Below, one piece after another: positions 1 through 51,983 of a stretch of DNA of 64,000 nt. Below the pieces are notes generated by a model. That model saw only the letters and a program-made list of their open reading frames with translations, was not told the origin of the DNA and searched no databases. The translations under genes were made by a program, and so were the position numbers. Origin of the DNA: Scenedesmus sp. ARA3 (Eukaryota > Chlorophyta > Chlorophyceae > Sphaeropleales > Scenedesmaceae); NCBI GenBank assembly GCA_004335835.1, contig RWJK01001566.1:1-64000 (forward strand), in the 5' to 3' direction. Within the stretch, counting starts at the first letter, position 1. Every line of letters begins with the position of its first letter.

Positions 1-448
1 TGTGTCATTTTGTTGCTAGGGCGAAAGGGCTTTGCGCCTACGCTACATACGTTAGGGCAGTATCAAACATTAGGCAGGTTGTTGCTGGAAGGCTTTAATA
101 GCAAGGTAGCAACTGTGGTGGCAGAAAGACACATTGGTTCAACCAATTTGGTTGTCTGTGTTTGGATGACTTGCAAGGCTGCGAGCACGCGACCATCAAG
201 CTATTTTGTGGTTTTGCCAGACATTTTTACATTTGATTGCAATGGCTGCATCCCAGCGGTCGATCGCAGCACGCAGCACGTGTCACTGCAAGCTTGCGGG
301 TTCTACCATGATCCCATGATCCGCACTCTATTAGATATGCGCACATGTATCTGGTTGTCACCTCAATCACAAGATCTTGATTTTGGTTACTAGGAGGTTA
401 TCTTCCGCCCTGGTATCAGCAAGCAGGCTACCGTGTCGAGCAGCAAAC
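1..448. other. Unassigned 5' flank of BTB gene
   Basis: No exon with a recognisable protein motif is visible on either strand. The open frame at 10-393 resembles no family I know and uses a non-ATG start. The stretch most likely holds the promoter and 5' UTR of the BTB gene, and perhaps the end of a gene to the left. Confidence 0.4.
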
Positions 449-1657
449 ATGGCCTTGGCTAGCACCAGCAAAGCGCAACATGTGCTGGTCCTGCCTCCCT
501 CAGGCAGCAACATGGCGCTCTTTTACGAATGCACGGACCTCAGCGACTGCGTAATCGTCACTGAGAGGGATGGCCAGGCCCGCTCATGCCACAAAGTGGT
601 GCTCAGTGCAGCAAGTGCTGTGTTCAGGGCCATGTTTGTGAGCAGCGACATGCTGGAAGCAAGCAGTGGCAGGGTAGTGATCAAGGAGGCAGAGCCTGAG
701 GTGATGCAGCTGCTGCTGCAGCACATGTACGGGCTGGAGGTGCAGGTGGCTGTGCAGCAGGTGCGCTGTGTAGACATGTGATGGGTGCGTGGGTTTAGGG
801 GTGGGCTTATATAAGCCCACCCATATATGGGTGTCGGGGTACAAAGGCAAGAGCTTCAGGACGTGCGTACATGTGTGCGTGTGGGTGCACAGTGGAGCAG
901 GTGGGCTGTGATTGCAGTGGTCACAACGAAATATGCGTGTACACAGCTTTGGGCGTGTACAGGGCGCAGGTGTCTGTAGGGGCATGGGGGTACATGCAAG
1001 GACTTTGTATGTGTGCACAGTGCCATGCCTATGTGTGGTGTACCCAGGCAATAGCACCACCTTGAGTGCAGCGACTACACGTTGCTTGCCCCTGCTGACG
1101 CTGCAGAGCATGTTCCTGCACCATTGGCCTTGCAGGTGGCAGCACTGTACCAGCTGGCAGACCAGTACCAGGTTCAGGCTCTGCTACAGCAGCTGGTGGA
1201 TGCTGTGAGCGCCACACCTTTTCAGCTGGAAACTCTGGTGCAGCTGATGCCAAAGGCAGCAGCCCTAGGCGACACTGCAACCCAGCTTAGGACTCAACTG
1301 GCTCAGCATGCAGCAAGTCACATTGCTGACTTCGTGCTGAAGCAGCCAGAGTGTGTGAAGCAGTGGGGCTTGCTGGAGGTGCAGCTGCTCATGCAGAGTC
1401 CAGCAGTATCAGCTTGCCAGGGCCTGCTGCTGGCAGCAATCTGGCTGGCAGGTGGTGCTGAGCGGCTGCAGCATTGGAGTGGGATGCAGCAGAAGGTGCA
1501 GCTGGAGCTCTTGCAATATGAGCAGCTGAGGTACTTGCAGCAGCAGCAGGATGTGTTGGAGCTGCCAGGCTTGGCAGCTGCGCTGTTCAGGGAATGCATT
1601 CGCCGCATGGACAAGGCCATCCGATACCCATATGTCAATACTTCTGTGTTCAACTAG
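449..1657 (+). CDS. BTB/POZ domain protein with BACK-like C-terminus
   Basis: Two-exon model 449-760 and 1136-1657, joined in phase 0, giving about 277 residues. The donor is CAG|GTGCGC and the acceptor is CCTTGCAG. Exon 1 carries the BTB core: DLSDCVIV, then CHKVVLSAASAVFRAMF, the conserved 'H-K-x-x-L-x-x-x-S-x-x-F' pattern. Exon 2 continues with the ALYQLADQYQV helix and a helical BACK-like region. BTB proteins commonly dimerise and act as substrate adaptors for CUL3 ubiquitin ligases; that role is inferred here, and the partner is unknown. The ATG at 449 precedes the fold by about 25 residues, and a second in-frame ATG at 512 could also serve. Donors at 739 or 745 keep the same phase but shorten the BTB alpha/beta junction, so 760 fits the family best. 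Confidence 0.75.
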
Positions 1658-3905: not shown

Positions 3906-6900
3906 TCACAGCGCGCACAGGTTCTCCTTGGGGTGCTTCCTGAACAGGCCAATGCTGCACAGCAGCCGAGCACCCTCAATGAAACCAAGCGTCAGCAGCA
4001 GCGGCGTCACCAGCTGCGCAGCCGCCAGCTTCAGCGTGCCAGCCACCAGGATGGTAATCAGCAGCGCGCCGTTGCAAAGGATTACGCCCGCCAGCTGCCA
4101 CAGCGCAACCGCCTCCCTGCTAGGCAGTGTCATCATCGCGAGTAGGCCATTCAATGGCCCGCGAGCACCCATCACCACCTGCACTGCGGCCACCACCAGC
4201 AGCAGCTGCCACTGCGGCGCCAGCTGCCATGCAGCCAGTCCCTTGAACAGCGCGGCGCCTGGCAGCGCTGCCAGCAGCAGCGTTGCGTTCTGCAGGTGCA
4301 GCTGCATGCTGCGGCTCTGCAGCAGGTTCACGGCGATGAACATACCCAGGATGCTGGCTGAGAATGCGGCTCCATTGACCGCAATCATGCCAGCAGTGCC
4401 GCGCAGAGCCACCAGCAGGTAACCGAGCACCGCTAGGCCTGCCATATCCAGCACAGATGCCAGCAGTGACAGGTGAGGCGACTTGGGCCCTGAGAACATC
4501 ACCACGCGCTGCTCACGCCACTTCATGTTGAGCTTCAGGTGGGTGTAACCGGGAGCCAGGCTGTTCGGCAGGCACATCCAGGTGCCCATGGCAGTGAGGG
4601 TGACTGCGACGGCTGCTGTGGTGGCCAGGAAGGGCATGTGGCTGATGGAGAAGATGGTGAGCGCTGCGCAGCTGGCAAGCAGCAGGGACTTGAAGGCGTC
4701 ACTGACCATCATCAGGTGGAAGCCCACCTACAGGGGAACAGAAACGTACAGGCACAGACACATGGGATCATCAAAACCTTGCTATGCATAGGAGCTTGTC
4801 TGTGCGTGCAGGCACAGACATTGGTGAAGGAGTGGTGACAGCAGGGATCATTTAAAGCTTGCCATGCATATGAGTTTGTCTGTGCACTTCCATATGTCCG
4901 ACACCTGACCCATGCAGCAAGCAGTCACAGCAGGTTGACGAAAGGCATGCAGCCAGACCCAGCAGTGATCCAGCTGCCGGATTACTCCCGCGTCACCCAC
5001 CTCGCTGAGCTCCTGGTTACAGCCCATGAAGCCGAGTGACACCAGAGGGGCGCCAGCCAGCGCAAAGGGTGACACCAGCAGCAGCGCAGTGTTGGCGGCC
5101 TGCTGCCAGATGAAGGATAGCAGCACCACCAGGCTGCACGCGAGCGTGGAAAAGCACACCAGCAGCACGTAGCTCCTGCAAGGCGGCACATCAGCAGCAG
5201 CACAGTCAGCACAGTCTATCGAGCTGTCGCCGTTCTGCTGCATAGGCTCAGCCACTGCGTTGGCTGGCCAGTCCCTGCAGCTGCAAAGGAGTATGGCAAG
5301 CAGTGTCCAGCTGCTGAGGCTGGTGCCATACCCCGCAGCAGTGCCAGACCACACCAGCATGGCAAGCTGCTTCCAGACTGATGGCTGCAACCCCGCAGCA
5401 AGGCCAATTGAGCAAGCAAAGCACGCAAGCAAGCAAGAAGGCAAGCAAGCCCGCCCGCCAGCCAGCAAGCTGTTGCTTGCACACTCACTTGGGTGTTTTC
5501 TTGAAGGCCAGGCAGGTCCAGATGGGTGCAGCGGCAGTGCTCAGGATCAGCTGCCACAGCACACGCATGCCCAGGCCATTCAGGATCGGCAGCCACTCAT
5601 TGTCGTGCGGGCGCAGCGGGCACGTGCTCCACGTCTGCCTGCTGATCTGCTGCAGCACCATGTACGCCAGCAGCAGCAGCGACGGCAGCATGCTCATGCT
5701 CTGCAGCAGCATGATCAGGTAGTTGCTGAACACGTGGCGCGGCGTGACCTCCTCGTCCTGCTGCGCCTTCTTCTTCTGCGGATGCTCCTTCTTATGGTAC
5801 AGGAAGCTGCTGCTCAGCGTGCCCAGCAGCCCGCCGCTGCTGCTCTTGCTGCTGCCGCTCTCGCTGATCTTTGTGACCATCACGTTGCACGTGCCAGCCG
5901 CCGGCGGCGCCGCCGCCACAAGTGCGGCCTGCAGGTTGAGGTTGCGGCGCTGCCAGGACTGCGCAAAGTAGGTGTCAGTTTCGTTGGAGCCAGCAACTGC
6001 GCGGCCCTGCTGCTTGCTGCCGCTGACCGCAGCGCTGGCCGCATCAATCTTGCGCCACATGGCCTGATATGCCTTCATCTGGTCCTCCACCACGAAGCGG
6101 CAAGCGAGTGCGTCTGCAATGAGCTTGCGGCGCTTGTCTGCTGGCGTGCTGAGCGCTGCGTTGAAGGCAGATGCCAGCTTGGCAGCCAGGTGAGGCACGG
6201 TGGCGGCGGCTGCAGGAACACAAGCAAACAGGCAGTGCAGCAGCAGCGAAAGCGCAGCAGCAGTCAAAGTGAGGCCGGCAGCTCACAGATTTGATTCAAA
6301 TGCACACTAAAGCAGTTGATGAAAAGCAACTGCACATCCAGGCAAGGTGTCATCTAGCACCAACTCCGTTGTAGAAGCAGTTGCTGACTCAAAAGCATGT
6401 GCACGCTGTTGGTTCAGGGGCAATCTGCTGGATGCTGTGCGCTGCGCTAACCTGCTTGGAAGGTATGCACCTAGAACACAAATGCACACCTAGAACACAA
6501 ATGCACCCCACTGACATGGCCTCTGCTACACATGTTGTGCCCTTGTGGTTTTGTAACTCAAGGTGCCAGCGCTGCTCTCACCTGCTTGGAAGTAGAAGCC
6601 AGGCATCTTGCCCAGGCCGCCTGTCTCATTGCCGATGATGAGGCCTCCATACCAGCCAAACTCAATGTCAACCAGGCCACACGGCTCATACCTGCAGCAG
6701 CAGCAGCAGCAGCAACGGACACCATAAAGTAAGCTCAGGTCTGTCCTGCAAGCGAGCGATACTAGGCTGCTGTACAGCTGCTGCCTGCTGTTTAGGGTGC
6801 GTATGCAGCAGCTCATGGCAAGCATGCTGTCGGGTGTTTGCAGTACGCCAACACAGCCATATAATGTGCAGCTGGCCTCCACGTCTGACATATCCAGGCA

Positions 6901-9900
6901 GTACAACAAAGCTGGCTCCATCCAGCTGTGGGCCACGCAGTACATGTCATCTACTCTCTCCCCACCTGGATGGGCACAGGCAGAAGTCAGCAGCAGCCAG
7001 CACTAGCTCCTTCTCATCTCCAGACACGTAGTGGTTGGCAGGTGCCACCAGCCTGCCCGGGTAATCCAGCGCAAGCATACCCAGGCTCTCCTGCGCCTCA
7101 GCACCTGCCACGTCACCCAGAGGCCCCAGCACCAGCAGCTGCAGCTTCAGGTGGCGAGCCAGCACCTGCGGAGCTGCCTGCGCGATGATATCCACGCCCT
7201 TTTGGTGGGTGAGTCGGCCGAGGAAGATCGCGAGCTCGTACTGCTCGCCGACGGCGAGGCCCATGCGCTGCTGGATCGCGAGCTTGGCCTCGGTTTTGCG
7301 GCGGATGGCTTCGTCGGCGGAGAGGCCTGCGCCTGCCCAGGTGCCGGCAGGGTCCATTGCGTTGAGGATTCCCACCACCTCGTCTGCAGGGCGGGTAAAC
7401 GAGCAAACAGAAGTGCAGCGGCAGGCCAGGCAGCAGCAATGTCAGGGCGGAGGCTGGGACAGGTTGTGTAGCTGCTGGGCAACTGGCATGCATAAGTCAA
7501 GCAGTACAACAGAAAGAGCAGCACCTACCGCACCTATCCAGCCACCTGTCTCACCCTGCGGCATCTGCCAGAAGGGGCTCAAGCAAGCACAGATCAAGCA
7601 ACACAACAGCAAGATGTCCCAACTGCTGCACCTCCCCTGCTATGCGGTGCCTGCCACTCACCCTGCGGTATCTGCCAGAAGGGGCTCAGCCGTGTTCGGA
7701 TCTCTGAGGCGTACTTGGGCGACACAGCAGCACAGCCCACACCCTTCTGCGCCTCCACCATGTGGCTCAGCAGGCTGTGCAGCGTGTCAAATGCACTCTT
7801 GTGCTCCGTGTACTTGCCCACAGCCGCAGGGTTCAGGTTGAACATGCTGTACAGGTACGCGCGGCGCTGCTTTGTCGGCAGCGCAAAGACGCCGTTGTAA
7901 TGCGCGTTGTGGGCGATGTACAGCACCTCGGGGCGCAGGTGCTTTGGCAGGTACTGCAGGGACAGCGCGCCGTGGTAGTCGTGCAGCTGCAGCCGCCGCA
8001 CGCCCCAGTTCATGATGACTGTGGCCACTGCCTGGTTGACCACGGACAGCCACGTGATCATGTCGTGCTCGCTGGCAAAGGAGTAGATGTCGGAGCGGCT
8101 GCGGTGGCGGAAGACGTTGGCCTGCAGCAGCAGGTACCTGCAGGGCGGTGGGTGCGGCAGTGAGCAGGTGTGTGGAAAGCAGGACAGCAGATGAGAGTGT
8201 GCGAGATTGTGCAAGCAGGTAAGCAGGGTGAGATGGTGTGATTGTGTGGGGTTGTGTGTGTGCAGCACAGCAGCAGGTGAGGTTGTGAGCACAGTGGTGG
8301 AGCTGCCGCTTGGTCATTGATAGAGATCGGGTGCCAGGGGCAGGTAACATGAAGCTGCTGACACCAGCCGCAGCCGACTGATGTGTTGCCAGGATGCTCT
8401 GCCACCTACGGCTACATCCATGACCAGTCGCGGCTGCGCTCTCACCTGCGGGCCTTGCCGGGTGCTGCATCCGCAATGCACAGCTCAAAGACCTCGATCT
8501 GGTGCGCCTGGTGCCCCACTTGCACATCAAAGCGCAGCACAGGCGGCCCGTGCACAAACTTGGGCGCTGTTGCTGCAGGATCAGAGTACGCCGCGGCATA
8601 CAGCGGCGCACACAGCACCATGTCGCCTGGCCAGTCCCTGGCAAAGGTATCCACGACCTTTCCGAGCCCGCCAAAAACGAAGCCGTCCAAGCCGAGCTCT
8701 GGAATGGTATATTCCATTGCCACGTGCATGATGCTGTTCTCGGTGAGGGGTGTTACGGAGTGCGCGGATGCCGAGCTGCACGTGTCGGTGCGGCGGTGGT
8801 GCGGGGGCGACGTGATCTTGGTCTCCCGCACTGCTGCGATGAACTCGGTGCTGTCGTCCTCGCTGTCCAGCTCCTGCAGGTGAGCAAAAGCAAGCAACGG
8901 CACATATATCATTGAACGAATGTTACAAGCAATGTTATAGCTTAGAGGAAAAGGCTGTTCGTGCACGTGCCCTGGCAGCTTGGCATGCTGTGCAGCATCT
9001 GCTTGCTAAGAAACACTGGACAAGGCCTGCAGCTGGTTTGAACCACAGCAATTGCAGCAATCATGGCTCTCCTACACGCGCTGCATGCTTTGCTCCTCCC
9101 ATGAACAGTGTGCCCCACCAGGTAGTTTATTTTACTGGATAACCAAGTGACCCCAGCAACAGCCGCACTCACCGCCATGCAGCGCAGCGACGTGTTATGT
9201 AGGTCTGCTGCACTGTCCACTTTGCTGGGTGAGCCGGGCCTCTTTGTTGGGCTGCTGGGCTGCTTTGCCAGCTTATCCTCAATGCTGGGCAGCTCTGCTG
9301 CTGCTGCTGCACTGTTGTTTGCAACCTTTGCATCTGCATCAGGCTGGTCCTTGCTGCGGCTGGGGGTGAGGCAGCTGGCGATGCGGCTGCAGGCATTGAG
9401 CACGATTGCGGGCGGGCGCATGACGCCCCACCACACTGACAGGCACACAATGGCCATCGCCAGCAGAGTGACCAGCAGCACCAGCTCGTCCACAGGCAGC
9501 TGCAGGGAACAGCCGAAGGAACACATCGCCAGTCAGCACAGCAGCAAGACAGCACTCAGACAAGAAAGCAAGCACAGGCTGCCAAAACGCGAGATGCAGC
9601 AAATTAATGACTCAAGTCGACAACCGTCTACCACAAGTCCTTCCTCTGCCCAGTGCTCAGTTGCTGCAGAGTGAGTGTGCAGTCTTCTGCTTCATCAACT
9701 GCTGTCTGTATGATTTGTCTCTCATGCCGCGCACCAGCAGCTTGCGTGGCGCCGCCGGCAGGAAGAAGGAGGCTGGCTTGGCATCTGCCACAAACACCAG
9801 TGGGGCAATGTCAACCAGCTTCAGGTCAGCAGAGCCGTCTGCATTGACTGTCAGCGTCACCTGCAGCAGCAACACAACCACAGCACAAAATGATACGGGT

Positions 9901-12900
9901 AAGCACAAGAATCACCAATATAGGGCTGGCTTATAGGACTGCTGTGGCTGCCTCACTGTGCTACGAGTGGACAAATCAGCTGCTGCTACACATATAAACT
10001 CAATGAGCTATTGCGCAGCGCTGGACCATACATCGGCACTGCAAGCACTCACATTGGGGTTGAAGATGTTGCGCAGCGTCTGCCCGCGCATGCCGCGAGG
10101 CAGGTTAGTCAGCGCCACAATGCGCGGCAGCTCCTCGGGGTGTGCCTTTGCCAGCTGGCCGCTGAGCACCACCAGTGCTGCGCTGCCGCGCGTGAAGGCC
10201 ATGACAAAGCCATCCACGTAGACTGTCTCGTAGTCTTGCTCCCAGAGCTTCAAGTTGGTGCGGTACCTGCAAAGGTAGCAATGCAGCAGCAGCAGCAGCA
10301 GCAGCAGAGGTGGGATTTTTTCGTACTGCACAACCAGTTGCAACAGTTGACATGTGGATTGCACAACCGGTTGCAACAACCCTGCTGCTGCTGCCTGCCC
10401 AGATACAGCTGATTACCTATGGTCATGCATCCTCAGCACCTGCAGCCTGGCAGCACATCCTCAGCAGCAGTGTCGCTGTGTGTGCAGGCTCACCAGTTGA
10501 GCATCTTGAGGTTGATGTAGAAGGGGGCTGAGCTGTTGTAGTCCCACTTCTCCCACAGTGGCTCGCGCTGCACATCCTTCAGCGCCTCAGTGCCATAGTA
10601 CACGATGGGTATGCCGGGCACAAAGAAGGTGAAGGCGAGGGAGTTGCTGCGGGCAGGATCAGGGCAGAAAACAGCAGGCAAGAGAGGCAGGGAGAGAGGG
10701 AGTAGGGTCAGCGCTATCAAGGGCAACAGATACCAGACAGTTGAGTAGCATTCGATAAGAGGACAGAGCAGCAGCGACCGCACATGGCGTGCTGCTGCTG
10801 TTCAGCTGCTGCAATCTCATTGCTGTAAGAGAAGCTGTACCAAAACGTGGCAAGGCTGGCTTGTGATGCAGCAGGAAACAAAGCAACCACTCACAGGATG
10901 ATGTCCTCGTTGACAGTTGAGTAGGAGGCCATGCGGGGCATGTCGTGGTTGTCCATGAAGTTGCCCAGGATGTTCACTTGGTGCGGCATGGTCTGGAACA
11001 CCAGGTCAACCGCTTTCTGGACAGGCGGCATCATGGCAAGCAGCAGCAAGCAGGGTAGGCAGCAAAGCATCTGTGAGTAGGATGATGATGATGATGCACA
11101 GCGTTGGTATGCTCTGAAACACCAGGTCAACCGCTTTCTGCAGTTAGCAACATCACAGCAGGCAGCGAAATAAGCAAGCAAGGCAAGCAAACAAAATGAG
11201 CGCGAGGGGTTGCCGGCCTCCAATTGCTGGTCAAACTATGATCTCAGTCAACAGGGTGCCACCGGAAGGCAGCAATCTGCTGCAGCCAAGCAGAGTCACG
11301 TGCAGCAAAGCACAACAGCAGCCCAAAGCTGACCTGCAACAGAGCTGTGACATGATGATGCACACTGCCGCCGCACTCACCGCTAGCACGGTGGTGTTCA
11401 GTGTCTCGTGTGTGTGCGTGCCGTCGGGACCCAGGAACACCCGCGCTGACGCGCCGTACAGTGCATACTGCAGCTGCGAGTGCAGCATGTTGTTGTTGAC
11501 CATGGCTGCGAGGCGGCGCGTGCCGTTCTCCCAATCCATGTCCAGCACCTCTCCGATCGTGAGGATGCGTGCACGCCGCTTCATCTCTTGCATGAATTTC
11601 TGCAGGGGAAACAGGCAGTATGCAGTTAGGACACAAGCGACAACTCCCGCAGAGGGGTGTTTTGATTGGCACACATCATAACACAGCAGCAGTGCACCCC
11701 GTGCTCATGCATAGCGGAGCAGAATGCCAGCCGCCAGAACACATCATACCACACAGCCTGCAGATGCTACATCCAAGACATCACGCCTCAATCTCAATCT
11801 CACCATGGGCATATGCTTTGCCGCGTCCACGCGGAATCCATCGATGTGGTACTCATCCCTGACCCATTCAATCCACTTGTGCAGCGTCTCAGCCACATGC
11901 GGCACAGTCTGATTCAGATCTGGGAGGCCCTGCACGCGGCAGTTCTCCACGCCCCATTGATCGTTGTCGTTGGGGATGTTGCAGGTCTCTGGCTCGCATC
12001 CTGCAGGCGAGTAACAAACGTGCAGCAGCAGCAGCAGCAGCAGCAGGAAGGTCATGCTTCAGATGCCCAGCAGGAGCAAACAGCTCAGTGCGTTGCCGCC
12101 AGACGTGTACTCCTGTTTGCATTGGCTCCCCAAACAGGGCCAGCCGGCTGCTGACAGGCAGGCACTGAGACGGTGAGCTGCAACTCGTCTGTACAACGAA
12201 GATGGCATGACAACCACATGTTTACAAGCAGAACATAGGTACTGTATTGAAGCTATTAGACAGACTGTTGGTGAGCAGGCACTCACGGTCGCAGGAGTGG
12301 TAGTACTCTGGCTTTGTAAAGGTCATCTCATGGATGTTTTCTGGTGCAAAGTACCCAGCGTGGTTGGGCACAATATCCAGCATAACCCACATGCCTGCAA
12401 GCATATATAACAGGGCACAAGGCATGTAATATGCACGCATGGCATTCAGCAATGAGGCGTGTGCTTGCATGGTGATTGTGACTTGCGTTTCTAGTGACCC
12501 GCTTGCCAGCAATGTACCTTGCCACCCAGCTGCTGTGCAGTGCTGACAACTGCTGCTGCAGCTTCCAAGGCACTGCTGTTGGTAAGGCGCTGCTGCTACT
12601 GTCGAGGCTTTTAGGTCGCTGCTGCTGATCGTTTGCTGCTGCTGCGCACCTCTGTCATGCAGTGCCTTGGTCAAGTCAGCAAAGTCCTGAGGGGTGCCAA
12701 GCATGGAGTTGAGGTCCCAGAGGTTCTGCAGACACACAAACCAAATAAGCTCGGTTAGACTGGCGCCAGCTGAAGCATTTGTACGCTTTTTCTGGCTGTG
12801 CTGCTGCATGGACCAGTGGCAGCCCAGTGTTTTTGCTGTTCCCAATGCATCAGCTGGTTCAGGGTTCCTCTGTGTGCACCGCATTCTGCACCAGCAAGCA

Positions 12901-13589
12901 CTGGGTGCTGAACTTGTGCTGCACAGATTGGTTGTTCTCACCTTGGGCCAGTACCCTGCAGCGACAAAGCAGCAGCAGCAGCAACAGCAGACGGAGTCGA
13001 CAGCAGCAATGACAGCATCATATGACAGCAATGCACTGCTGGCCAGGAGGATGCTGTAGAAGTTCATCAAGGACCGAATGTACCTGTGCTTTGCATATAG
13101 TCTGCAATGGCTGTTTGTGGGCTCTTGCATTTCTGGCAACTGCCGGAGTCAAAGTAACTTGCGGAATCCTCTCACCGTGCCAGCCATCCTGCAGCTCGCG
13201 CACTGGGCCACCAGTCTGTGACGTTACTGGACTAATCCAAACGGCATCGAAGCCCATTCCCTGCGGACAAGGTGTCGGGTGAGTGGCCAAGACCTTCGAG
13301 CCACGCAGCAACAGACCAGACGATCCGACGACGGGGATAGGTGTACCTGGATGTAGTCAAGCCTCTGCCGCAGGCCCACATGTGTGCCTCCGCATGCATT
13401 GTCGAGATCCTTGCAGGGCCGAGGTGTGCTTGGGCAGTCGGGCAGAGCAAACCTGTCCGTCAAGATGTGCAGCACGCTCTTGCTGGCCCACTGTTCGGCT
13501 GCTGGACCGTATGATGCGGCAGTAAAAGCAAAAGATACAAACACGAGGCAGCTACAGAGGAACAACGAGCCCCGGCTGGGCCCCCACAT
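3906..13589 (-). CDS. Fungal-type alpha-1,3-glucan synthase-like protein (GH13-TM-GT5-polytopic)
   Basis: Nineteen exons: 13589-13347, 13260-13176, 12955-12942, 12725-12650, 12394-12287, 12000-11804, 11599-11381, 11016-10895, 10646-10494, 10266-10053, 9860-9735, 9499-9173, 8873-8446, 8137-7662, 7383-6966, 6691-6582, 6209-5489, 5175-5001, 4727-3906. They sum to 5034 nt with all phases matching (1677 aa). Signal peptide is about 1-25. GH13 domain is about 30-519, with LDIVPNH, nucleophile D234 in GFRVD, acid/base E258 in TIGEV, and D339 in DNHD. A TM helix lies near 524-545. GT5 domain is about 675-1220 with FGGLGKV, GRLTHQKG, EPCGL and ETGGL. Exons 17-19 encode many TM helices. This is the order of fungal Ags1/Mok1, where the amylase domain is extracellular and GT5 cytosolic. 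It is shorter than the fungal proteins (about 2400 aa). V694 replaces the KxGGL lysine. Making alpha-glucan is inferred. Confidence 0.88.
7551..7582. repeat. Echo of exon 14 donor edge (glucan synthase)
   Basis: About 30 bp match the 3' edge of the exon at 7662-8137 (parent 7660-7691) with one or two changes, including the bottom-strand GT donor. The copy lies in the following intron, about 110 bp from its parent. Confidence 0.75.
11113..11140. repeat. Echo of exon 8 acceptor edge (glucan synthase)
   Basis: Near copy of 10992-11019, the first codons of the exon ending at 11016 plus its acceptor. It lies about 120 bp further up the preceding intron. The echo has a CTGCAG acceptor stronger than the CTCCAG-like parent, but it runs out of frame after about eight codons. 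Confidence 0.7.
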
Positions 13590-22748: not shown

Positions 22749-24758
22749 TCAAGGGCACTGCGCTGTCCAAGGACTCTGCGGCTGCAGCAGACCAGGAGCC
22801 TGCCTGCACGCCCCTGGGGGGCAGCGACACAAGTGACACCTCGCCAACCCGGAATGCTGCCGTACCGGAAGGCAGCGGCCGCAACAAGGCACCCACCAAA
22901 GGCAGCAGCCAGCCAGGCGCTTCCAGCCACGAGCTGCTCAATGCATCTCTAAAGGTAGGCCTGTCAGCCTCAAACAGAGGTACCAGCACCAGCATACCTG
23001 TTGGTGACATGTAACTGGTACAGCGCTGCCAATTGCTGCTGCTGTGGGGACGTCGCCATAGCTTGTAGCGCAGCTGAACAGCAACATGTTGCTGTGTGCT
23101 GGCGCTGACAGGCAACTGCCCCTGCTGTCCTGCTGCGCTGACATGTGCAGATGCTGAGCATGTCTCTTCCTCCCACAATCACAGCTGCTGGCTCCTCCTC
23201 TGCCAGCAGCAGCAGCAGCAGCAGCAGCGGTGCTCCAAGTCAGCTGTACGCCCTGCAGCAGCAGCAGCAGAAGCGCTACTCTTGGTCGGGCATACTACCC
23301 GCTCCTTTACCAGCAGGTTGTGCAGCTTCCCCACCCCAGGACGCTGCGTGGTCACTCCTGGGCAGCACACACCAGGCGCCCTGGCAGCACACACCAGGCG
23401 CCCTGGCAGCACACACCAGGCGCCCTGGCAGCACACACCAGGCGCCCTGGCAGCACACACCAGGCGCCCTGGCAGCACACACCAGGCGCCCTGGCAGCAC
23501 ACACCAGGCGCCCTGGCAGCACACACCAGGCGCCCTGGCAGCACACACCAGGCGCCCTGGCAGCACACACCAGGCGCCCTGGCAGCACACACCAGGCGCC
23601 CTGGCAGCACACACCAGGCGCCCTGGCAGCACACACCAGGCGCCCTGGCAGCAGCAGGCCACGCAGAGCCAGCAGCAGCGCATGCAACAGCGTGCAATGT
23701 GCTACGGCGCACAGCAGTCTGGCTTTCCAGCCAGCCAGCGCAGCAGCAGCTGCCCAAATGGTGCAGGATGGACCATGGCTGGTGCTGCCTTGCCAACCGC
23801 AACAGCAGCAGCAGCAGCAGCAGCCAGGGTGGGGCCCCTGCCATCGACACCGCCGGTCTGGTGTGCCAGCGCTGCTTTGGTGGGGAACTCTGGTCCTCTG
23901 CAGAGCGGCAGCAGCAGCAGCATTTACGCCAACCTCAAGGCAGCTGACCAGCTGCTGCGCCTGCAGCAGCAGGTGTCAAACATGCCAGCTGTGCAGGCAT
24001 CACGAGCGTACTGCAGCCTTGGCAGCGCACCCAGCTCGCAGCTGCAGCAAGACCGCCAGCTGTCTGCCCTGTGCTTGGCTGTGCAGAGCATGAGCCATCA
24101 GCAGATCAACGGCTTAGCAGCAGCTGCAGCGGACTCTGCGGCAGCAACAGCGTTGGGGGCTGGCTATGCACCAGCCAACCTTATGACGGGCTGTTCAGGC
24201 TTACCTCCTCCTGCGCTGAGCAGCAGCTTCGGTGGTTGGGGGCCAATGACCCAGGACCCCTGGCAGCAGCTGCAGCTGCAGCAGAATGAGGCCCAGGCCG
24301 ATGCAGCAGCAGCAGCTGCTGCTGCCGCACACTCAGAGCAGGCAATGCTCACAGCCTCCAGCAGGGCAATGGCTGCCAACAGCTTGGCAGCTCCAGACCA
24401 GCTGCTCTCACAGCTGCGGGGGGCGTCACCTGATGAAGGCTTTGCGGGGCCTGTTCTGGCAGCAGGATCGTCACTTGCAGGGGACACCTCCCCTGTATTC
24501 ATGCACAACATGCAGCAGCAGCAGCAGCTCCAGCTTGAGTTGGAGCCTGCAGCCTGGTCGATCATTGCAGAGGACAGTGGCTGGCAGAGCGTCGGGCGTG
24601 TGACGGGTGCACAGATCCACGTGCAGGTGCAAGCCTGCAGCCCGCTGCTGTGCCTCACGGTGTCAGGCACAGCCAGCCAGGTGAGCATGGTCAGTGAGCT
24701 GATCCGGCTGCTGCTGCAGCGGCCAGCTGGGCAGGCGCAGCTAGGAGGGCTTGCCTGA
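22749..24758 (+). CDS. Low-complexity protein with degenerate KH domain, 5' end unresolved
   Basis: Two exons are clear, 22749-22954 (AAAG|GTAGGC) and 23151-24758 (GTGCAG|ATG), joined in phase 0. The first begins mid-codon, so at least one earlier exon is missing. The large exon is Ser/Gln/Ala-rich, is interrupted by the 22-residue THQAPWQHTPGALAAHTRRPG-type repeat, and ends with a KH-like segment: WSIIAEDSGWQSVGRV, TGAQIHV, LTVSGTASQVSMVSELIRLLL. That is the normal KH alpha-beta-beta-alpha end, but the GxxG loop that grips nucleic acid is replaced by AEDSG. RNA binding is therefore doubtful, and a scaffold role is possible. The stop is TGA at 24756. I do not recognise an orthologue. Confidence 0.6.
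23361..23646 (+). repeat. 22-bp coding minisatellite, 13 identical copies
   Basis: Thirteen perfect head-to-tail copies of a 22-bp unit beginning GGCAGCACACACCAGG. Because 22 is not a multiple of three, successive copies are read in the three frames in turn, giving a 22-residue super-repeat every three copies. None of the six frames contains a stop. Perfect identity suggests very recent expansion or continuing homogenisation. Confidence 0.95.
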
Positions 24759-43195: not shown

Positions 43196-44957
43196 GCTGC
43201 TGCACGCCTGGCAGCTGCCTTCTGCTGACAGCAGACAGCACTGGCTTCAGGAAGCGGGACACCTCCAGTGGCTCCTCCCGCCAAGCCTCCCTGCTGAAAG
43301 CTGCCCCTGGCCAGATCATCAGGCAGTGCCTGAAGCACAAGGGCGGCGCAGGGTGAGCAGCAGGGTGAGCAGCAGGGTAAGCAGCATGGTGAGCGGCAGG
43401 GTAAGCAGTAAGCAGCAGGGTAAGCAGTAAGCAGCAGGGTACGCAGCAGGGTAAGCAGCAGGGATGACAATGTCTCGAAATTGGAGGCAGTGTGAAGTCC
43501 TAGCATACGATAGCTGCTGTCAGCCAGGTTCAGGAAGCAGAGCCTGCAGTGCAAAGAAGGCAGCACGCATTGCGCATGCACGCACCATGACTTGTCACAC
43601 AGGATGATAATGCTGTCACCAGCCCCAGCTGGTCAGCTGCAGAGTCAGATCCAGCTCAGCTTGCCAAACACACCACGCCGCATTCCAATACACATTCAGC
43701 AGACCAAATGCGCTCACTCCTTGGCTCGCGTGATGGCCACATACAGCAGGTTCCTCTCCTGGTCCAGCACATCTGAGCCCGCGCCGGCGTCATCCTTGTG
43801 TATGGCTGGCATGGCGTCATCGTGCAGGCGCAGCAGCGCCACGCACGCAAACTCCTTGCCCTTGCTGGCATGCATCGTCATCAGCTGCACCTTCTGCGCG
43901 TCCCGCTCATCCTCATCATCCTCGCCTTGCAGGACACAGTAGTCGTACAGCTGCTGCAGCAGCGGCAGACCTGTAGTTGGCTGCAGCAGCGGCAAACTGC
44001 TGCTGCTGCTGCTGCTGCTGTTTGGCACGCCCGCATCACTCTCGCCACCATCCCCGCTCTCTAGCCCTGCTGCATTTGCTGCTGGCTCGGCTGCATCCAA
44101 GCCCAGCACAGGACTCTCTGTGTAGGCCCGCGTGTTGCGAGCCAGTTTGAGTAGAGTATCCAAGTTGCCTTTGCGCTTGCGCAGCTTCTTCAGGTCCTCG
44201 CTGCCCTTGCTGCTGAGCCGCTGCTTGGCTGCCTTTGCCTGCAGCGCTTCAAGTGCCGCCTGCAGCTCGGGGCGCACCCCAGAGGCCCCCAGCAGCAGCT
44301 GCAGCCCCCAGCAGCAGCAGTAGCAGTGGCAGGGCGCAAGGCAGTGCAGTGTGGTATGAGGCTGCTGATGCCTGGGGCTGCCGGCAGGCGCAGCAATAGC
44401 GCAAAGGGAAATTCAAATTTCATCAAATGCAGCAAACCTTGACATAGCGTCATCAGGCTCACCTCGAGCACCTCCTCAGGCCGCGACACAGCAGCAGCAG
44501 CCCTGCCCAGCAGCAATAGAGATCCATATCCATCCACATGCAGCACAGCCAGCGCCATCAGGCTCACCTCCAGCACCTCTTCAGCCCGCGACACAGCAGC
44601 CGCACAAGCTGAAGCAGCACAGGCGGCATCACCCAGTGACGCCGCCACAAGAAAGCATAGCCATTCAGTCACAGGCAGCAAACAAGAGTTGGGCTCACCT
44701 CTAGCACCTCCTCAGGCCTTGAGACAGCAGCAGCAGCCCTGCCCAGCAGCACCAGGCCCCTCAGCCGGTCCACAGCCGCCGCCTGCTTCTTAGTCAGCTT
44801 CTTGGCACCAGCCGGCGGCTGCCATGCTGCAGCAAGCCCCTGCAGTGCCTCTGTTGAGTCTGCACCAGCAGCAGTAGCTGCGCTGTATTGATGTAGCGTT
44901 GCAATGGCCTGCTCTGAGGATGGCTCGAGCGGAAGGTCGCCTAGCAGGCAGCCGCCG

Positions 44958-46147: not shown

Positions 46148-49100
46148 TAGACAGACAGACAGACAGACAGAAGCTCTGAGTGAGTGCACAGGCGCACGGC
46201 GCACATAGCTTGCAACAGTTGAGAAGAGCATGCGGCATCTTGCACAGATCCCAGGTGATATCTGCGCGCTGCAGGAGCTGGCACGCTGCTGTTTGTTGGG
46301 TCACCTGGCCCTGAACAGCACAGCTGTCTCGCCCCACACGCTGTGCAATTTCTGCATGAATTATGTCCCACCTGTTACTTGCATGTCCTAACATCTGCCT
46401 CTTACACTGTGCTCACCAGGCGTTTGGCCCTGAACAGCACCGCCATCTCGCCCCACACATAGCCGGCCTCATGCCACCTGCGCAGCTGCAGCACCACCTG
46501 CGAGCCCCAGCATATGAGCACGCACCAGCAAGCGACATCATGTGTCGTTTCAAACCTGCTGATAGCGGTGATGCCCATGCAGCTATGCACACGTCATGGC
46601 AAGCTCTGCAGGTAAGCTGTGTGAGAACCAGTGTGCAGCAGCATTCACTGGGGTGGGGTGGGGTGTGTAAGCTGCTCCTGAGCTGCTCCCAGTAACACGC
46701 TGCGTGCGCCAACCACCTGTCAGGTTACAGCAACTTCACACTGTACCGTGCAGTTCACCCGGTTTGCACAGCTACTTGACACCACCACGGCGGAAACTTG
46801 CAGGAACTTGCAGGAAGCCGGCAGCATCTTGCAGGAAACTTGCAGGAAAACAGCCCACCTGGTCCGCCTCGTCGTACTCATTCCTGGCCTCCATGAGCAC
46901 AACTGTGTCCAGCCTGACAACAGGCTGCCTGCTGCGGCCTGATGCAGCAATGCTGCTCGACAGCCTGCAGCCAGCAGGCACACAACATTGCGTCAACACC
47001 TGCAAATGTTGACTGCTTACAGACACGGTTGATGAGGTTTGACCTGCCCTGCTTGAATGAATGAATAAAGGAGCTACGCGTGGTGTTCACACTGAACACC
47101 CACGTAAGTTGAGGAAGGGGACGTGTGTGGCGATGACGATACCTCATGCGCCTCCACGCCTCCTACCAATTGCCCTGCTTTGTCTAGATATGATGTGTTC
47201 TGCTTATGCTGCACAACGCCACCTGCTTGCCGCGCCACTGCACCAGCTCTGCCACCTGCACGATTGACTCAACACCAATGCGGCTCTATTGCATGAGTGG
47301 AAGTTTGCAGCCCACCGTCCTATGCAGCTGCGGAGTAGCTTGTCACGCACCTGCCGTGCCGCGCAACAGCTATGCCACCTGACAATGGGGTCAACACCAA
47401 TGCGGCTCTTTCTGCATACCTTCTGTTGGGCATTGCAGCCCACAACCCATGCAGCACATGAGCAGCTTATCACGCACCTGCCGTGGCGCCGCACCAGCTC
47501 TGCCACCTGCACAACGGGCTCCCGGCTGCGGTAATTCTCTGACAGCGAGCGTGTGGCAGCAGTGGGGCCGTACAGCTGGGAGAAGCTCTGCACGCAGCAA
47601 GCAGCAAACACACAGCAGTTGTTTCCTCAACTCATCCTCATACGATCCAGCATTTACAGGCAGTGACAGCTGCGCTGACCGGCATAGCTGCAGCAGAGCC
47701 CCAGCAAAGCACTTCGCGCAGCAGGGATGTGATCTGCATGTGACAGCAGAGAGCCTGTGCTCTGTGCACAGCAAGCAAGGGCAGCACAGACAAGCACACC
47801 ATGTGCGCTGCTCTACGCATGCTGCACCCAATCCCCAAGTGCATTGCTTGCGTGATCTCGCGGCACCCGCCCAGAATTACGCGCCCCAAATTGCAAGCAA
47901 CGCTGCATACCTCCGCCAGCAGGGCAGACTTGGCCCCTCGGAAGCCGTAGATGCCCTGGGAATTTGAAAGGCGGCAGCAACAGCAGCAGTGGCAGCGCCA
48001 GCAGGAGTAGCAGCAGCGGCCGGAGCAGCAGCAGGAGCAATGAAGGTCAGCTGCAGCAAGGGCGCCAGCTTCCAGGAGCACAACGCAGGACACAGCCCAC
48101 AGCATGCGCTGTTTGATTATGGAAATGCTGAACAAGGCGGCACCAAACTCTCACTCCAGAGATCTATGCGATGCCTGCAGATGACATTGCAGCCTGCAGC
48201 ACAGGCGGTATGGTGCATCATGCCGTAACAGGTCAGGGTGCCCCGCGGCCCCCCATGAACAGGCAACATAGCAGAGCACAAGTGTTTGAGCCCCCCAGCC
48301 ATGAACAGGCAACACAGCAGGGCCCATGTGATTGGGCCCCCAGCCATGATTAGGCTGCTGCCACCTTGTGCATTGTGATTTGAAGGCAGTCAACCCCACA
48401 CCGTTGGCTACAGCACTCTAGTTTTTTGATACAATCGTCACGTAGCAGTCATGTAACAGTCATGTGACGGAGCTGGCCCCTACCTGGTCCAGGTCTCCCA
48501 CCATGAACAGGCTGCTGCTGGGGCTGGTCAGCCGCTGCACCAGCTCAAACTGGCACAGGCTTGTGCATGTAACAGCCATATGACAGTCATGTAACAGTCA
48601 TGTAAACAGTCATGTAACATGAGACTCACCTGGTCGGGGTCCCCCACCATGAACAGGCTGCTGCTGGGGCTGGTCAGCGCCTGCACCAGCTCAAACTGGC
48701 ACAGGTTGGTGTCCTGCGACTCATCCACAAGCACGTGCCGCCAGCGGCGGTGCACCGCAGCCCTGACCTGCGGCGTTTGCAGGCATCGCAGGGCTACTCT
48801 TGGGTGCAGGAAGCAGCAAAGACGCTGATACAAACAAGCGCAGTGTGCTTGCAGGGCGTTTTATTGCAGTGTTTGTTGGTGTACATTGCAAGGTGCACCT
48901 TTTTCTCCCTACGCGCCACACACATTGCAAACTTCCCATGCCTCACCTCAGTGTTGTTCAGCAGCAGCGCAAGGCAGTGGTGCAGCAGATCATCAAAGTC
49001 CAGCAGCTGCTGCTGCGCCATGCGGGCCACGTACTCGTCATACATGGCAGCGATGCGGCGTGTGATGTTGCTGTTGTCACCACCTGGCAGGCTGCGCCCC

Positions 49101-50950
49101 GCTGCAGCCATCTGTGCAATCAGCTCTGCGCCAGACCGTCTGCAGTTTGGACATCCCAGGGGCGTGTGATCACCCAATTGTATTGGTCACGAGCGCAACT
49201 TGCCGTTGCTATGTCGACATGGTATGTGTGTACGGAGGCGGGTCAAACCACGGGAAATTCAAACCAAGGGGATGCTGCAGCACAGATGCCTTGGCTTGGC
49301 TGCGGCTATCCTTTGTCTTGATTATTTGATGCAGCGCATTGGTTAGCAGCATTGCGCTTCATTCTGAGGCTCTTCTGCAGGCACACAATTCAACATCTTG
49401 CCCTTCATTGTTGCATGATCAGTGTATGTCAGTCACTAGTCAATAACACGCAGGCTCACCGCTCAATGTTCACACAGAAGTTCTTGATGTTGCTGATGTG
49501 CTTGCGGTAGTACGTCACCTCGTCCTTGCCCTTCCGGTCCTGCTGCTCGCCGGCAAAGTAGCCCAGCTCCTTTCTGAACTCTGCGTTCTCAAGGATGGAC
49601 TTGACCATGGCTGCCGCATCTTCTTCGCTCGCCACTTGGAAGTTTGGCAGGTGCGTGTGCTGCCTGTAGTGCCTGCAGGGACGCCACAGCAGCAGCGCGG
49701 AGAGGTGTGATGGCACGTGCGGAAGTTCACAGTGCACCGCGCCGCTGTTTCAACAGCCCGTTGCTCTGCCGCATACAAGCACACGTCTGCATGCCGACTT
49801 TCTCATGTTCCTGCATGAGGCAGGAGATCTTACCCCCCTCCCCCTCCCCCCAACCCACCTCAGCAGGTTGGTGCACAGCGAGTGGAAGGTGCTGGGCCGC
49901 AGCTGGGCAGTTTCTGCCTCACCCAGCAGCTCCTGTAGCCACTAGTGCTCCCTACCCCTCGCACTCCTGCGAGCCGTTCCAAACCTGCGAGCCGCTCCAA
50001 ACCTGCGAGCCGTTCTAAACCTGCGAGCCGTTCTAAACCTGAGGTGACATGCCTTCAATCCTGCCATCTCCCACCCCACACATGTTTACTGGTTCCATTG
50101 CTTGCTGCAGCAGGAGCTGCCCCGCTGTCACTGGTTGCTCCTTACTCCCCCCTCACCTCAGGAGGTTGGTGCACAGCGAGTGGAAGGTGCTGGGCCGCAG
50201 CCGTGCTGTTACTGCCTCACCCTGCAGCTCCTGTAGCCACTAGTGTTTAGTACCACTGTACTCATGCAGGCTGTGGTGACAGGCCTTACAAACCCACCAT
50301 CTACCCACCCGGCACACACCACCTCGTTCCCCCCTTTGCTTCTGCAGCAAGGAGGCAGCCGTCCCCCTGTAAATGTGCATCACGCCTGCCACTCTCCTCA
50401 CCACAGCAGGTTGGCGCACAGCAGGTGGGAGGTGCTGGGCCGCAGCTGGGCAGTTACTGCCTCACCCAGCAGCGCCTGCAGCCACTAGTGCTCCTTTTTA
50501 GTTTTGAGGATTTGACCGACTGGCTATCCACTGCTCGCAACACAGTTCAGATCACTTGCTTGCGTTGAAAGCAGCTTTACACATTACCTGTACCCCTCGC
50601 ACTCCTGCGAGCCGTTCCAAACCTGTGGTGGCATGCCTTCAATCCCGCCACCTCCCACCCCACACATGTTTACTGGTTTCATTGCTTGCTGCAGCAGGAG
50701 CTGTCCCCCTGTCACTGGCTGCTCCTTACTCCACCCTCACCTCAGCAGGTTGGTGCACAGCGAGTGGAAGGTGCTGGGCCGCAGCCGCGCTGTTATTGCT
50801 TCGCCCAGCAGCTCCTGCAGCCTCTGCAGCAGCTCGCCTGCTGCCTTGCGAGTGAAGGTGATGACCAGCAGCGACTCAGGCGCGTGGCCGGAGGCGATGA
50901 GGTGCGCCACTCGGGCTGCAACCACGCGCGTCTTGCCGCTGCCAGGGCCT

Positions 50951-51259: not shown

Positions 51260-51983
51260 NNNNNNNNNNNNNNNNNNNNNNNNNNNNNNNNNNNNNNNNN
51301 NNNNNNNNNAGCAGCAGCAGCAGCAGCAGCAGCGGCAGCGGCAGCAGCAGCAGCAGCAGCGGCAGCGGCAGCAGCATTCTGCCTGAGGTGTGCCACTTGG
51401 GCTGCAACCGCGCGTCTTGCCGCTGCCAGGGCCTGAAGAAGATGACAAAACACAACGAGTTTGGGGCATTGCTATCTGATGCCAGATCACGACATGTGGC
51501 AGCAGCGCCTGCAGTAGCCAGAGGGGTGCTGCAGCGCATGCGCTGCATTGTTCTTTTTACGCCTGCCTGGGTGAAGCAGAGGCCTGTCGTTGTTTGAACC
51601 GGCAACATTGCACACTGACATCCTCGCATAGCAGTCGACAACGTTCAAGCAACCATGCGCATGCAGTGCTGCCGTCGCCACCATCGCCAGCTGCTGCCGC
51701 AGGCAAGCTACTGCAGCACTAATAGAACGCACCTGCAATGACTGTCAGACCCAACAGACATGTAACACACAGCACAAAGACAGCGGATAACCTATGACAG
51801 CCCACCTGCAATGACTTTTACGTGCTGCTCTGGGCTGAAAGCAGCCAGCTGCTGCTCGCCATTCAGCTGCGCCAGGTATGCTTGCACCGCTGCACGGTGC
51901 TGCTGGTCCAGCGCTGAGGACTGCAGCTGCACGGGGCTACTGCTGCTGCTGCTGGTGGTGCTGGGCTGGTGTTCTACAGGCAG

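Follow-up and report, generated by a model that had tools for sequence, protein, structure and literature searches.

A gene of 19 exons on the minus strand (13589-3906) of the window, i.e. the whole 64,000 nucleotide stretch of Scenedesmus sp. ARA3 DNA that was analysed, encodes a predicted protein in which a GH13 domain, one transmembrane (TM) helix, a GT5 synthase domain and a polytopic C-terminal region follow each other in the order known from the fungal alpha-glucan synthase Ags1. The GT5 domain appears nearest to that of Ags1, whereas the GH13 domain is of another type. Judged from the sequence, this would probably be a single membrane protein with the mode of action of fungal Ags1 but a different ectodomain.

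Gene model and domain organization

Rebuilding of the gene from the sequence gave a reading frame of 1677 amino acids with an ATG at 13589, a TGA ending at 3906 and no in-frame stop. Exons 1 to 10 (13589-13347, 13260-13176, 12955-12942, 12725-12650, 12394-12287, 12000-11804, 11599-11381, 11016-10895, 10646-10494 and 10266-10053) and exons 11 to 19 (9860-9735, 9499-9173, 8873-8446, 8137-7662, 7383-6966, 6691-6582, 6209-5489, 5175-5001 and 4727-3906) are all located on the minus strand and are separated by 18 introns of 86 to 372 bases (median 273), each of them with GT-AG borders. Read-through met a stop in 15 of these introns; introns 1, 3 and 4 contain none, and their removal therefore rests on homology. 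The 14-base exon 3 is supported by the solved amylases, which continue across it (HGYW), and since homology spans the exon joins the 19-exon model is not a product of chance. The same exons were recovered by spliced alignment of the 1677-residue protein to the DNA, which is a check of self-consistency only.

Pfam searches identified an Alpha-amylase domain (aa 55-376, E 1.8e-43), a Glyco_transf_5 domain (aa 693-920, E 7.9e-9) and a Glycos_transf_1 domain (aa 974-1137, E 5e-11). A predicted signal peptide of about aa 1-25 (13515..13589, minus strand), placed by eye on a hydropathy peak at aa 7-25, is followed on the same strand by the GH13 ectodomain with its C-terminal region (about aa 30-519; 9735..13502; Pfam and PDB alignments), a single TM helix (aa 525-543; 9428..9484; Kyte-Doolittle 2.57), the GT5 synthase domain (about aa 676-1170; 6016..8732; Pfam, PDB alignment and motif positions) and a C-terminal polytopic region with about 12 hydrophobic segments predicted by hydropathy (aa 1270-1654; 3978..5718). 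A weaker hydropathy peak at aa 353-371 falls inside the GH13 barrel. The number of C-terminal segments depends on the threshold, since 12 non-overlapping segments were found at a Kyte-Doolittle mean of 1.05 and nine of the 12 reach 1.6. This region gave no Pfam match over the cut-off and no PDB match, and the last exon, modelled by itself with AlphaFold2, gave an unusable structure (pLDDT 46.6); the region is partly conserved in the second copy of the gene on contig C1263. The original prediction had described one gene model of 19 exons and 1677 residues, and the rebuilt gene confirms it. The order claimed for it, a putatively extracellular GH13 domain, one TM helix, a putatively intracellular GT5 domain and multiple TM segments, was also found by Pfam and hydropathy.

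Elsewhere in the window, fragments of at least one UvrD-type helicase gene (43717-44412 and 48797-49186, minus strand) and a BTB/POZ domain (335-778, plus strand) could be recognized. An open frame on the plus strand (23142-24758) carries many copies of the repeat APWQHTPGALAAHTRRPGSTHQ, and 50 N in a low-complexity stretch (51260-51309) probably mark an assembly gap.

Affinities of the GT5 domain

On TIGR02095, the curated model of ADP-glucose dependent starch/glycogen synthases of the GlgA type, the GT5 domain of the window protein scored 131.9 bits, which is below the cut-off of 328.45. Five of the nine starch synthase models of the alga were run against the same model and all five passed (487.8, 514.4, 425.6, 412.4 and 428.1 bits), while the GT5 domain of Ags1 reached 102.3 bits. 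The Ags1 sequences used here and below are provisional ones, not taken from a database, and that of the GT5 domain was validated only by its behaviour in searches. With phmmer, this provisional Ags1 domain was the best match (178.5 bits), compared to at most 69.4 bits for 47 bacterial GT5 domains and at most 60.7 bits for the starch synthases of the alga itself, seven of whose nine models were matched.

A tree of 25 rows, including 16 of the 47 bacterial sequences and six of the nine starch synthase models, placed the window GT5 domain, the C1263 copy and provisional Ags1 in one group with 100/100 support, in which the Ags1 branch has a length of 2.73 and is flagged for long-branch attraction; within this group, the window domain and the C1263 copy paired at only 86/73. 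In a tree built without provisional Ags1 and without the C1263 copy, the window domain stood apart from both supported starch synthase groups on a branch of 5.56. A single clade of the window GT5 domain with the starch synthases of the alga was rejected by the AU test (p 0.0004), a value which is inflated because these starch synthases themselves form two groups. The profile scores, the phmmer searches and the trees agree that the GT5 domain is not one of the starch synthases of this alga.

The positions R986, K991 and E1071 (from motif positions and PDB alignment) and the motifs RLTHQKG and EPCGL are kept in the window GT5 domain. The lysine of the KxGG motif, present in the starch synthase models of the alga, is replaced by V694, which may lower activity. 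A scan of prokaryote genomes yielded 49 loci at 24-36% identity, and for 47 of these an ORF matching the window GT5 domain could be recovered. The 47 ORFs were taken for GlgA-type enzymes, and none of them contains the pattern GG[LM], 0-2 residues, [KQ]MPG. Viral contigs scanned with the GT5 and GH13 domains of the window, a provisional fragment of a fungal GT5 domain and an alignment gave no relatives.

Affinities of the GH13 domain

The best matches of the GH13 domain among solved structures are TAKA-type alpha-amylases. Three of them (PDB 2guy, 3vm7 and 6sau), which are of fungal origin, align over nearly the whole barrel with 196-204 bits; amylases of this type belong to the subfamily GH13_1. 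The nearest relative found is a stand-alone amylase of the alga itself, encoded on contig C1317, with 243 bits in a comparison that gave 193-199 bits for the three solved amylases. The catalytic-type residues D234, E258 and D339 are kept at their motif positions, and the domain combines full barrel homology with the catalytic Asp/Glu/Asp of a TAKA-type secreted alpha-amylase. The match to the provisional Ags1 GH13 domain is weak with phmmer (23 bits) and BLASTP (46 bits, 25% identity over 238 residues, E 9e-9), and the provisional Ags1 domain itself leans toward neopullulanase-like enzymes in the PDB.

For 309 Ags proteins of fungi, three motifs of 50 residues have been published (PMC7389562, section 16). 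The provisional Ags1 GH13 domain matched them at 41/50, 42/50 and 42/50, by which this sequence could be checked. The window GH13 domain matched motifs i, ii and iii at 10/50, 6/50 and 14/50, and TAKA amylase at 7/50, 8/50 and 11/50. For motifs i and ii, the window scores are within the range of shuffles and lie at non-homologous places; motif iii was matched at the homologous place and above shuffles, close to TAKA amylase. The Ags motifs are thus not matched, which sets the ectodomain apart from the Ags type. Taken together, the sequence of the GH13 domain places it with the secreted alpha-amylases and not with the domains present in fungal Ags proteins. In an eight-row tree the three algal GH13 domains grouped weakly (78/85), and in a nine-row tree a branch with values of 53/84 separated the window, the C1263 copy and the provisional Ags1 domain from the other rows. 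The Ags1 branch has a length of 7.16 in the latter, and the GH13 tree therefore fits a swap of the ectodomain and a divergence of the fungal domain alike.

Relatives in the genome and host origin

The genome assembly comprises 87.3 Mb in 1567 contigs and contains 47 exon-level matches to chlorophyll-binding proteins (LHC genes). A diverged relative of the gene is located on the minus strand of C1263 (51595-62564, loci L020 and L021). Its GH13 pieces show 60% identity over 57 residues and 31-41% in the others, the second half of its GT5 domain shows 38-70%, and its C-terminal segments show 28-40%, with one weak segment at 24%. These parts follow each other on one strand in the same order as in the window gene; the second half of the GH13 domain, the TM helix and the first half of the GT5 domain are absent, and several exons are locally duplicated. 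The copy is a relative that has diverged and been rearranged and may have decayed; it supports the linkage of the parts and not the presence of a second working enzyme. The stand-alone amylase, with its TAKA-type-like GH13 domain, is located on the plus strand of C1317 (56912-60854, loci L036 and L037), and the 20 kb examined there gave no GT5 match.

Codon usage of the gene correlated with that of six of the nine starch synthase models at r 0.90-0.95 singly and 0.97 pooled, in a comparison that included no foreign gene as contrast. GTGAG donors were counted in 13 of the 18 introns of the gene and in 18 of 75 introns of the starch synthase models, and TGCAG in 14 of 18 and 30 of 75, respectively, the starch synthase models being automatic and rough at their intron ends. 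In kind the splice signals resemble each other, but the match is not close. The codon usage supports the original conclusion of a resident algal gene, while the shared splice style carries less weight than had been claimed.

Comparison with fungal alpha-glucan synthases

Ags1 is described as consisting of a signal peptide, a GH13 domain, a TM helix, a GT5 domain and a multi-TM domain (PMC5753165). The algal protein shares this order with fungal Ags1/Mok1/AgsB (S. pombe, Aspergillus), and in this respect the predicted likeness to Ags1/Mok1 agrees with the review layout. The provisional GT5 domain of Ags1 is the nearest to the algal one and both score far below the GlgA cut-off (102.3 and 131.9 bits). 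The designation as a complete fungal type goes too far. The algal GH13 domain differs, being of the alpha-amylase type and lacking the published Ags motifs, and the 1677 residues of the protein fall about 700 short of the mean length of fungal Ags proteins, 2376 +/- 166 (PMC7389562). V694 at the place of the KxGG lysine is another difference to be considered in this comparison. The algal ectodomain has the barrel and the catalytic-type residues in common with TAKA-type secreted alpha-amylases, but is fused to a TM helix, a GT5 domain and a polytopic region. Likewise, the algal GT5 domain shares the fold and the RLTxQKG and EPCGL motifs with starch synthases and bacterial GlgA, whereas the five starch synthases of the alga reach 412-514 bits on TIGR02095 against its 131.9.

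The host is also different, as a fungal review states that Ags genes occur exclusively in Dikarya (PMC7389562) and here the gene is found in a green alga. A survey of algal glycosyltransferases from 2013 describes, in its treatment of GT5, only starch synthases (PMC3797821). No report of an Ags1-like gene in an alga was found in a search of titles and abstract openings, a scope outside of which lie most subscription papers and the database annotations. Some algal proteins in public databases may carry Ags-like names. A genome search for GH71 alpha-1,3-glucanase gave no match and was uninformative, the controls being equally silent.

Alternative explanations

The model could have joined two neighbouring genes, with exons 1-11 coding for a secreted alpha-amylase and exons 12-19 for a membrane GT5 protein. 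Read-through of exon 11 leads to a stop at 9657 and exon 12 is closely preceded by an in-frame ATG, which allows for two open frames, and the amylase on C1317 is an example of the same type standing alone. However, exons 11 and 12 are only 235 bases apart, near the median intron length, and the C1263 copy keeps GH13 and GT5 parts in the same order and strand, although duplicated neighbours could give the same result. The lack of TGTAA and AATAAA between the two exons points the same way, but weakly, as neither occurs within 1.1 kb past the true stop either. On balance, we regard two joined genes as quite unlikely. Fungal or bacterial contamination of the assembly, to which the fungal-like domains might point, is hardly credible in view of the 18 introns, the pooled codon usage (r 0.97), the diverged relative on C1263 and the amylase relative on C1317.

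Another possibility is a true orthologue of Ags1, all of whose domains go back to a common origin with those of fungi, by transfer or by inheritance, and whose GH13 domain diverged in one of the two lines. This would explain the common domain order, the 178.5 bits between the GT5 domains, the nine-row GH13 tree (53/84) and the BLASTP match of the two GH13 domains. It is nevertheless unlikely in our opinion: the window GH13 domain reaches only 23 or 46 bits to provisional Ags1 compared to 193-243 bits to alpha-amylases, its matches to motifs i and ii are at shuffle level and that to motif iii (14/50) is near that of TAKA amylase (11/50), and the algal GH13 domains group, weakly, in the eight-row tree. 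Even less can be said for a remodelled starch or glycogen synthase of plastid or cytosolic storage with no role in the wall, which we consider very unlikely. The GT5 fold is common to GlgA and the alga has a large starch synthase set, but the window GT5 domain falls outside both supported starch synthase groups (with the inflated AU p-value given above), and a predicted signal peptide with many membrane segments does not suit a soluble stromal enzyme.

Proposed function and significance

The preferred reading, an Ags1-like membrane protein with another ectodomain, can be outlined with the help of the fungal enzyme. In S. pombe, the synthase domain of Ags1 is needed for the accumulation of alpha-1,4-glucan, the mutation E1526A of its predicted catalytic glutamate stops this accumulation, and intracellular synthesis, export via the multi-TM domain and transglycosylation outside the cell have been proposed (PMC5753165). 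E1071 of the algal protein is, by its motif, probably equivalent to E1526. For the algal protein we infer topology, activity, donor, linkage, export and localisation as follows. The cytosolic GT5 domain would build an alpha-glucan out of glucose supplied by a sugar nucleotide. The chain would cross the membrane by way of the polytopic C-terminal region, and on the outer (or luminal) side the GH13 domain would cut or transfer alpha-1,4-linked chains as they emerge. The amylase-type site with D234, E258 and D339 could trim or join alpha-1,4 stretches and, as a guess, would favour more alpha-1,4 linkages in the product than in fungi. The presumed product would be an alpha-glucan of the wall or matrix, synthesised at the plasma membrane as originally suggested. 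The ectodomain may have arisen by an independent fusion, or could preserve an older state, with the fungal domain as the diverged form.

More tentatively, and with slightly less than even confidence, we propose that green algae of one lineage produce an alpha-glucan (1,3-, 1,4- or mixed), extracellular or secretory, by means of an Ags1-like synthase. The catalytic and polytopic parts of this synthase would be common with fungi, and its alpha-amylase ectodomain would be independently fused or ancestral. If this is true, alpha-glucan synthases of this kind are not an invention of Dikarya, and the alga has, besides its plastid starch, another alpha-glucan system. The presence of an Ags1-like protein in a green alga would place the beginnings of the family outside the fungi and would pose the question of transfer or ancient loss. 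The different ectodomain bears on the role of the GH13 domain in Ags1, and the gene would be a candidate for the glucans in algal walls.
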